52,062 bases of DNA. Origin: Alistipes sp. GTDB taxonomy: Bacteria; Bacteroidota; Bacteroidia; Bacteroidales; Rikenellaceae. Location: positions 1-52,062 of the forward strand of contig JAFVRN010000005.1 of the NCBI GenBank assembly GCA_017504265.1, written 5' to 3'. Below the pieces are notes generated by a model that saw only the letters and a list, made by a program, of their open reading frames with translations, was not told the DNA's origin and ran no database searches. A program made the position numbers and the translations under genes. Position 1 is the first letter of the stretch, and each line of letters begins with the position of its first letter. Shown here piece after piece: positions 30,760-32,685 of the stretch.

Positions 30760-32685
30760 CTATTTAGCTGAATTGTAGGCTGACACGGGATATAGTGACA
30801 TAGGATACCAATCCGGAGCTCCACTGCGACTGAGTCTGATCTTCGCTTTGATGCTGTCGTCGAATGTCACGCTATATACCTGCAAAGCAGATGACAGATC
30901 ATCCGAGTCGGTGATATATAGCTTTGTAACCAGACCGGTGTAGTTGTCAATCTCATATCCCCACAATGTCACATTGTGACCACTGCTCTGGAATGTTGGG
31001 CTTTGTACGATTGCCAAACCGAACATACCAGTCTTAAAGCCCTCTACTATGCGGTTAGAGAACTGTGTTGATATGGTACCGATGTCAGCTGTCTCCCATG
31101 TGCCCGCTTTGTAGATCCAACCTGCGCCGTTGTGGATCTCACCTGTATAACCATAGGCATAACCTGAATACATTTTAGACTTTATATCCTCCAAAACGCT
31201 CTTGAAATAGCCACCCGAGTTAGCATCGATGATAGTAGCACCATTACTGATATTGTTATAGGCATCTCTACCCTCGAAGTACCAAACGACACCGCGGTCT
31301 GTCCAGCCGCCACCCTTTGAGTTATCCCAATCAGAGTGGAATACCTCCATTATCTCCAACTCGTATGGACCGAAGTTAGGATAGCTCTTCTTACCTGGGC
31401 CGTCAGGGCAACCAGCAGGCAGCGTATTGCCGGCAGCCTTGTATCCATCCTGCCACCACTGCAAAATATTTGAGCAAGCTGCGCTCCAACACATATTGAT
31501 GTCGCCATTATCGCCCTTACCCTTCTTGTTTACATCGTACCAACCCGAAGAGAGTGTGACGCCCTTGGCAAAGACAGTGCTAATACCTGAGCCTGTAACC
31601 TCCTCAGCGGTGATGGTGATGGTCTCAGACTGCTTCTTGCCAACCTTAGCATAGGCCTTGTATGTGCCTGGCTCTGTGGTTTGGAATGACTTGCTCATCA
31701 TCTTGCCATCGTTGATGTAGATTGTAGCCTTGCTGGTAATATCCTCGTTGCCTTGCTTAACGGTGAAAGCTACGCTATCAACGCCATTAGCCTTGATTGT
31801 GGTCTTTGATGCAGTAAGCTCGATAGGCATATCGTTGATATTGTTATCGCTGCTGAGCTCCAATGAGATGGTGGTTACCTTCCCCTTTGACATCTTGAGT
31901 GCAGACTTCTGCTTGGTAATCTCGTAGCACTTCTCCTCGCCTACAAAGATATCGAAGGCGAGTGTCACGTCGCTCTTCTCCGTAGGGATAGGGAAGAGCA
32001 TAGTAGAGCAGCTAAGCGATGTTGCGCCCTCCTTACCCTTAACATCTACCTCGATAGTGCTTGTGCGGGTCTTCTCCGATGTGAAGTTGCCATCAACCGA
32101 GAAGTAAGCGGTTTCGATAAACTCGATGGGGTTATCTCCGCTCTTGGCAGTCATCTTGATGGTAAGAGCCTCGGCTGCAAGATGGTTGCTGGTGTAGCCA
32201 CTTGCCAGGCTAAGGTTGAAATCAACCTTGTGCATAAGATGTGCAAAGGCCAACGATAGCGATGTGTTGTCGTCGATAGTGACGTTGCTCATTTGTGCCG
32301 ACATATATACGTTGTCATCGGCAGTGCGGCTGAGTACCACCTCGTTGCTTATCTCAACATTGGGGTAGATAGCCGTAACTGTCTCGTAGCTACCCTTAGG
32401 AACGCTGCCCCAGAATTTCGCGCTCTTGCCGTTGTTGCTGATGTCGCCCTCAGACTCAATGGTAAATGTCGTATAGCGAGTATCGTTGCCAAGGAATGCT
32501 ACTGTAATCTTATCGCCAACCTCCCAAGTGGTGCTCTTGCCATCAACGGCAACACGAGTGGCGTCGTCAGCATCGGCAACAATGCTTACGGCAACAAGGT
32601 CATAGACTGTCTCTGTTGTATCAGTCTCGCACGCTGCAAATGTCATTGCAACGAAAGCTGTAAGGATAAAAATAAATCTCTTCAT
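30760..32685 (-). CDS. Lipoprotein with fimbrillin-like and IdeS/Mac cysteine protease domains
   Basis: 641 residues from MKRFIFILTA; an earlier in-frame ATG at 32730 would put 15 residues before the signal peptide. The lipid-anchored Cys is C19 (MTFAAC). Residues about 30-280 resemble the Bacteroidota fimbrillin/Mfa-like family (TWEVGDKITVAF, AFAHLMHKVDFNL). Residues 285-362 look like a bacterial Ig-like domain. Residues 367-641 match the IdeS/Mac (peptidase C66) fold: GWYDVNKKGK with K387, MCWSAACSNILQWW with nucleophile C399, SGHNVTLWG with H570, and YITDSDD with D593. These align with K84, C94, H262 and D284 of streptococcal IdeS, which cuts IgG at the hinge. The substrate here is unknown. 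The gene follows a 44-residue peptide gene and ends in a strong terminator. Confidence 0.82.
   Translation of the reverse strand: MKRFIFILTAFVAMTFAACETDTTETVYDLVAVSIVADADDATRVAVDGKSTTWEVGDKITVAFLGNDTRYTTFTIESEGDISNNGKSAKFWGSVPKGSYETVTAIYPNVEISNEVVLSRTADDNVYMSAQMSNVTIDDNTSLSLAFAHLMHKVDFNLSLASGYTSNHLAAEALTIKMTAKSGDNPIEFIETAYFSVDGNFTSEKTRTSTIEVDVKGKEGATSLSCSTMLFPIPTEKSDVTLAFDIFVGEEKCYEITKQKSALKMSKGKVTTISLELSSDNNINDMPIELTASKTTIKANGVDSVAFTVKQGNEDITSKATIYINDGKMMSKSFQTTEPGTYKAYAKVGKKQSETITITAEEVTGSGISTVFAKGVTLSSGWYDVNKKGKGDNGDINMCWSAACSNILQWWQDGYKAAGNTLPAGCPDGPGKKSYPNFGPYELEIMEVFHSDWDNSKGGGWTDRGVVWYFEGRDAYNNISNGATIIDANSGGYFKSVLEDIKSKMYSGYAYGYTGEIHNGAGWIYKAGTWETADIGTISTQFSNRIVEGFKTGMFGLAIVQSPTFQSSGHNVTLWGYEIDNYTGLVTKLYITDSDDLSSALQVYSVTFDDSIKAKIRLSRSGAPDWYPMSLYPVSAYNSAK

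Follow-up and report, generated by a model that had tools for sequence, protein, structure and literature searches.

The 52,062-nucleotide stretch of Alistipes sp. DNA analysed here (contig JAFVRN010000005.1, called the window throughout) encodes on its reverse strand a lipoprotein of 641 residues in which a fimbrillin-like domain and an immunoglobulin-like (Ig-like) domain precede an IdeS/Mac-type cysteine protease domain of family C66. The explanation we consider best, with slightly more speaking for it than against it as a whole, is an outer-membrane lipoprotein that would carry an active C66 protease on a fimbrillin-like and Ig-like stalk and be aimed at a host immune protein. Its parts differ in strength: the C66 fold together with the predicted activity is close to certain, a host immune protein would, by analogy with known members, probably be the substrate, and an immunoglobulin in particular is a tentative assignment. 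The gene and its parts were located as follows.

30760..32685, reverse strand: Mac-1 (C66) lipoprotein gene, 641 residues, stop codon included (reading of the open reading frame, ORF, and Pfam)
32629..32685, reverse strand: lipoprotein signal peptide with Cys19 (FAAC lipobox), assigned by eye
31831..32604, reverse strand: fimbrillin-like (Mfa_like_1) domain, residues 28-285
31597..31830, reverse strand: Ig-like (Big) domain, residues 286-363
30766..31584, reverse strand: IdeS/Mac-type cysteine protease domain, residues 368-640
31525..31527, reverse strand: K387, oxyanion-hole lysine, aligned with IdeS K84 (sequence alignment)
31489..31491, reverse strand: C399, catalytic cysteine (IdeS C94; sequence alignment)
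30976..30978, reverse strand: H570, catalytic histidine (IdeS H262; sequence alignment)
30907..30909, reverse strand: D593, catalytic aspartate (IdeS D284; sequence alignment)

The original prediction, drawn from the letters of the DNA alone, had described a lipoprotein joining a fimbrillin-like region to a C66 protease, and this observation was confirmed. The search with the Mac-1 profile PF09028 that it had proposed gave a match above the cut-off (Pfam, E 2.3e-12; 47.1 bits against 20.3), and the comparison of folds, named beforehand as the point at which the assignment to IdeS might fail, returned for the protease domain the computed papain-like fold of IdeS. With the full set of lysine, cysteine, histidine and aspartate present in the alignment, the gene belongs to C66 on each feature tested, namely profile, fold and catalytic positions. 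The Ig-like domain, the fimbrillin-like stalk and the lipoprotein signal were supported as well, the fimbrillin-like domain being recognised both by its profile (Mfa_like_1, E 2e-8, Pfam) and by its fold; in NCBIfam the gene had only a weak lipoprotein-leader match below the cut-off. The window is the entire contig C21 of a genome of 1.83 Mb in 48 contigs, in which the Pfam matches were two, both within this gene.

The residue numbers and roles used for IdeS and IdeC, including that of K84 as oxyanion-hole residue, follow PMC9759587 and PMC12418751, and D595 of the window protein aligns with IdeS D286. K387, C399, H570, D593 and D595 were invariant in 76 of 76 rows, that is, the window and 75 relatives, with aspartate at both acidic positions (593 and 595) in every row. 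The invariance of the lysine and the cysteine follows in part from the selection itself, since both the collection scan and the extraction script required that stretch; that of the histidine and the aspartate does not depend on the selection. Furthermore, the reading frame of the window gene is intact with every catalytic residue present, and the protease domains appear to be under purifying selection, the ratio of non-synonymous to synonymous substitution (dN/dS) ranging from 0.06 to 0.16 in the 9 of 78 pairs close enough to judge. A second, more distant Mac-1 type occurs in the same genus (L003, L004 and L012); it has a GWYDCNK-like start and keeps the first aspartate but, like T-Mac of Treponema denticola, has asparagine in place of the second acidic residue.

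That the protein is held at the cell surface is predicted with good confidence. A lipobox-like pattern fits 63 of 76 family proteins, and 49 of these 63 have two or three acidic residues at positions +2 to +7; the E-T-D-T-T that follows the lipid cysteine of the window protein contains acidic residues but departs from the published export consensus. Two Mac-1 proteases with a dockerin-like stretch were found without a lipoprotein signal (L065:5740-6834 and L071:5737-6837, loci assigned by eye; Dockerin_1 of Pfam occurs in 2 of 73 members). In the mechanism we envisage, the protein would be exported by the Sec/SPII route, lipidated at Cys19 and then flipped to the cell surface, the fimbrillin-like and Ig-like domains acting as a stalk. 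In the papain-type cleft C399, activated by H570 and D593, would attack the peptide bond, while K387 and the backbone would form the oxyanion hole. The substrate would be an immune protein that the host secretes and the bacterium meets in the hindgut, either an immunoglobulin or a complement protein, and its cleavage would blunt opsonisation of the bacterium.

The gene is part of a fast-changing family found mostly in ruminant hindgut bacteria. Our scan of genome contigs confirmed 130 relatives, the best 80 of which, by similarity to the Alistipes query, were kept and represent 76 distinct loci; L022 (a duplicate of L021) and L085, L087, L088, L089, L094, L095 and L096 (no usable row) were dropped, so that 68 loci gave 80 proteins, or 81 with the window. 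RGIG ruminant metagenome genomes contributed 60 of the 76 loci, all 60 with titles naming caecum, colon or rectum, the remainder being 13 loci from SIG genomes, whose titles give no source, and three others; in the RGIG study 148 samples were stomach contents, and the small and the large intestine contributed 111 each (PMC8199421). The gut-commensal host that had been proposed is also supported, as the genus includes Alistipes sp. genomes from ruminant colon. Relatives extend to other Bacteroidales families, Lentimicrobiaceae, a Flavobacterium and Verrucomicrobiota. Within the genus, an Ig-plus-protease profile matched 97 of 180 genomes at E 0.001, many through the Ig-like domain alone, and a best match of 1e-60 or better, which denotes this Mac type, was counted from the table in 41 of 180; across the phylum, Pfam Mac-1 was found in 3 of 395 evenly drawn genomes, the window's own among them. 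A fimbrillin-type N-terminus was recognised by a custom profile in 17 of the 81 proteins (Pfam Mfa_like_1 detects 6 of 73 members), and in the other 64 the Ig-like domain is absent or present up to five times. Directly upstream of 12 of the 16 other fimbrillin-type genes lies a second Mac gene. The window's genome also encodes a 795-residue lipoprotein that lacks a protease and contains this Ig-like domain several times (G000:C43:50000-57977; L099:2642-5029, reverse strand), of which shorter two-copy relatives occur in many genomes of the genus.

Protease domains have been shuffled between N-terminal stalks, which exchange or gene conversion explains best; in metagenome genomes, tandem copies may in single cases have been assembled into chimeras. 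This claim is based on a tree, an approximately unbiased (AU) test and synonymous distances. On a tree of 77 of the 81 protease domains (four short rows left out), the 15 rows with the fimbrillin-type label require 13 changes, of which well-supported branches force at least 12, and 158 of 500 shuffled labellings were as low, i.e. the label does no better than random. Grouping 14 fimbrillin-type rows was rejected (AU p 8e-20) on a quick tree from which the window and seven distant rows were also left out. Moreover, the long fimbrillin-type genes of L031 and L034 differ by a synonymous distance of 0.25 in the N-terminal part versus 1.06 in the protease, and the tandem pair of L034 by only 0.04 in the protease though its N-termini are of different types. 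Tandem mates do not always share a protease domain, however: when each own mate was compared with any fimbrillin-type gene elsewhere, 6 of 12 pairs were nearer the own mate, 1 tied and 5 showed the opposite. The window protease itself sits on a long branch of 0.75 changes per column.

On five other contigs (L038, L043, L051, L072 and L091) a fimbrillin-type or truncated Mac gene has neighbours in common with the window gene, namely lysyl-tRNA synthetase and triosephosphate isomerase genes, RNase R-like and radical-SAM genes, or GH20. These neighbours are 94-96% (lysS), 88-95% (tpi), 84-89% (radical-SAM), 80% (RNase R-like) and 72-73% (GH20) identical to those of the window, as against 41-46% for the fimbrillin-like part, 42-53% for the Ig-like part and 47-52% for the protease of the Mac gene. 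The window gene therefore lies at an old site and diverges much faster than its surroundings. At the other chromosomal site in the family, a fibronectin-type (fn3) lipoprotein partner is followed directly by an Ig-type Mac gene; a partner gene standing at C33 of the window's genome (G000:C33) had suggested that the window copy was newly moved, an idea rejected on the strength of the five contigs. A Mac-1 remnant was not found at that site (L098), where the sole tblastn matches had E 0.59 and 0.91. In L091, the fimbrillin-type Mac gene is split into two ORFs (4890-5420 and 5581-6222) and ends at the contig edge. An origin from viruses or mobile elements was rejected too: 41 pattern matches in a viral-contig collection gave 0 confirmed relatives, phage records gave no match, plasmid records gave one distant match, and the 50 matches listed in a comparison with viral structures were confined to beta-sandwich and tail-fibre folds at low TM-score (template-modelling score).

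The partner is a lipoprotein of about 680 residues with fn3 domains (Pfam fn3, E 8.6e-7; model confidence by predicted local distance difference test, pLDDT, 85.7), comprising four fn3-like stretches between residues 70 and 502 and a C-terminal domain.

L031:2876-5002 and 31 like genes: fn3 partner directly upstream of Ig-type Mac genes
G000:C33:25993-28020 (L098:5985-8162): fn3 partner of the window's genome, with no Mac gene alongside

Among loci with at least 700 nucleotides upstream, 31 of 44 of the two-or-more-Ig type have the partner within 400 nucleotides ahead of their first Mac gene, as against 0 of 14 loci with none or one Ig-like domain and 0 of 4 fimbrillin-type loci. A strong partner match occurs in 36 of the 41 genomes with this Mac type and in 38 of all 180 in the genus (Fisher p 5e-30, ignoring shared descent), and in 33 of the 38 genomes partner and Mac gene lie within 3 kb of each other. 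The window also holds two tandem large lipoproteins on the forward strand (21734-23953 and 24194-26494), which are distantly related to the partner (hhalign probabilities of 95 and 92%); near the L072 Mac gene lies a relative 50% identical to one of them, and a Pfam search gave no family for that at 21734-23953.

Directly before the window gene lies a further reading frame.

32708..32842, reverse strand: small ORF, 44 residues, stop included, 22 nucleotides upstream of the Mac gene

It has no Pfam match and belongs to a family of unannotated peptides of about 35-60 residues with the pattern Y..P....VE.GF..S, encoded ahead of genes for fimbrillin-like lipoproteins and perhaps acting as leader, regulator or assembly partner. 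Of 15 other fimbrillin-type Mac genes, 11 are preceded by such a peptide at a distance of 2-19 nucleotides; before Ig-type genes, for which the criteria were similar but stricter, the single match is the end of a partner gene. A profile of 16 of these peptides matched 16 of 31 genomes, with up to 17 matches per genome and 11 in one genome of another family. In other genomes, each of 21 copies hand-picked from the better matches (L110-L129 are among the further copies, as are L103-L109 in the window's own genome) is followed within 3-49 nucleotides by a lipoprotein-like ORF, all 21 with a TR/SR/TK...W stretch near the start; ten of these ORFs were scanned, 3 showing Mfa_like_1, 2 of them above cut-off. 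The small ORF does not always precede a lipoprotein: in the own genome 5 of 7 further matches do, the five including neither L104 nor L103, where a different gene follows 173 nucleotides away. A literature search on small ORFs and fimbrillins returned nothing on this peptide.

What is the enzyme likely to cut? C66 fold and sequence cannot tell, because the nearest published design, T-Mac (TDE0362), cuts complement C3, C3b, C4 and factor H and leaves IgG uncut (PMC11833123), whereas the other known members, IdeS and IdeC, cut antibody. We would tentatively place immunoglobulin somewhat ahead of complement. The specific alternative that survives best, while still being doubtful, is a genuine IdeS-like immunoglobulin endopeptidase that would act at the bacterial surface on the hinge, or a region comparable to it, of some ruminant antibody class: fold and catalytic set are those of IdeS, and the spacing from cysteine to histidine (171 residues, from residue numbers) is nearer that of IdeS (168) than of T-Mac (149), but IdeS specificity depends on exosites (PMC9759587), and T-Mac provides a precedent for a Mac-1 enzyme that does not cut IgG. 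It is unlikely that the protein is a housekeeping or nutritional surface protease, trimming bacterial surface proteins such as fimbriae or the fn3 partner or digesting dietary or mucus-associated protein. The fimbrillin-like stalk, the frequent fn3 lipoprotein upstream in multi-Ig loci and the GH20 hexosaminidase gene adjoining in the window would suit such a role, for which exchange of protease domains and rapid divergence would be unusual; the gene is, moreover, confined to fewer than a quarter of the genomes of the genus, and GH20 is divergently transcribed and outside the operon. Slightly less likely still is a T-Mac-like protease cutting complement or another non-antibody host protein, even though the order of parts is that of T-Mac (PMC11833123) and the alignment with T-Mac chains covers the Ig-like and protease domains (286-640). 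The window sequence is nearer IdeS than T-Mac in both comparisons (E 1.3e-5 vs 0.04, and 3.3e-17 vs 7.3e-10). Complement is scarce in the gut lumen, which also counts against this alternative. A decayed or binding-only relative without activity, to which the long branch of the window protease might point, is very improbable given the retained catalytic residues, the intact frame and the apparent purifying selection in relatives.

Several observations weigh against a protease that acts at the surface on an immune protein of the host. The segment from C399 to H570, where specificity would be expected, is among the most variable of the family, and the rapid divergence of the window gene includes the stalk, not the protease alone. 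E-T-D-T-T does not closely fit the published export signals K-(D/E)2, Q-A-(D/E)2 and SDDDD, and T-Mac, with the same layout, spares IgG (PMC11833123). The hindgut link is confounded with taxonomy, which alone may account for it because Alistipes was commoner in the large intestine in the RGIG study (PMC8199421); it is weakened further by the 76 loci being the best of 130 by likeness to an Alistipes query.

A broader and rather unlikely idea would be that ruminant hindgut Bacteroidota share a cassette system, in which a C66 domain is swapped among lipoprotein stalks and homogenised in tandem pairs, an fn3 lipoprotein captures or presents the substrate, and host antibody or complement is cut as an everyday commensal strategy, not a pathogen virulence trait. 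Streptococci and one spirochaete are the known sources of C66 enzymes, of which IdeS serves both as a drug and as a laboratory tool. A large and diversified set of commensal relatives with intact catalytic sites would indicate that cutting immune proteins may belong to normal gut life; the family would supply numerous natural enzymes of differing specificity for testing, offers a case of a protease domain evolving as an exchangeable cassette, and through purified domains allows a direct test of how gut Bacteroidales deal with antibodies in the lumen.

C66 in gut Bacteroidales is not new to databases, because a Bacteroides gene is already annotated at NCBI as an IdeS/Mac family cysteine endopeptidase. 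Our literature searches for Mac-1/IdeS relatives in gut Bacteroidota, covering titles and abstracts with most subscription journals and all preprints outside their scope, found no such commensal enzyme described, and surfaced T-Mac, the streptococcal enzymes, one classification paper and unrelated reviews. New, as far as this literature goes, are the architecture with a fimbrillin-like stalk, the extent of the family within a single genus and the exchange of its protease domains, as well as the fn3 partner and the small ORF. The annotated gene lies on a Bacteroides finegoldii plasmid (L097:7641-8708, NZ_OY725919.1), where it adjoins a transposase. Like the window gene, it comes from a gut member of the Bacteroidales and encodes a Mac-1 domain in a probable lipoprotein; it differs in being 27% identical over 88% of the query, in having a proline-rich spacer in place of the fimbrillin-like and Ig-like parts, and in an asparagine as second acidic residue (TDNND). 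IdeS/Mac-1 of S. pyogenes and IdeC of S. canis (MEROPS C66, PF09028) are 21-22% identical to the window protease, and are secreted without such a stalk. Bacteroidales fimbrillin-like lipoproteins (Mfa_like_1, PDB 3t2l and 4k4k) resemble the N-terminal part, which in the window gene is additionally followed by Ig-like and protease domains. The closest design is that of T-Mac (PMC11833123; PDB 9arc, 9mdk, 9mdm and 9mdo), which likewise combines a lipoprotein signal with an Ig-like domain directly before Mac-1; its protease, which proved insoluble when separated from the Ig-like domain, is only 17-18% identical, its stalk consists of Big domains without a fimbrillin-like domain, and it has Asn585 where IdeS has aspartate, unlike the window protein with both D593 and D595.
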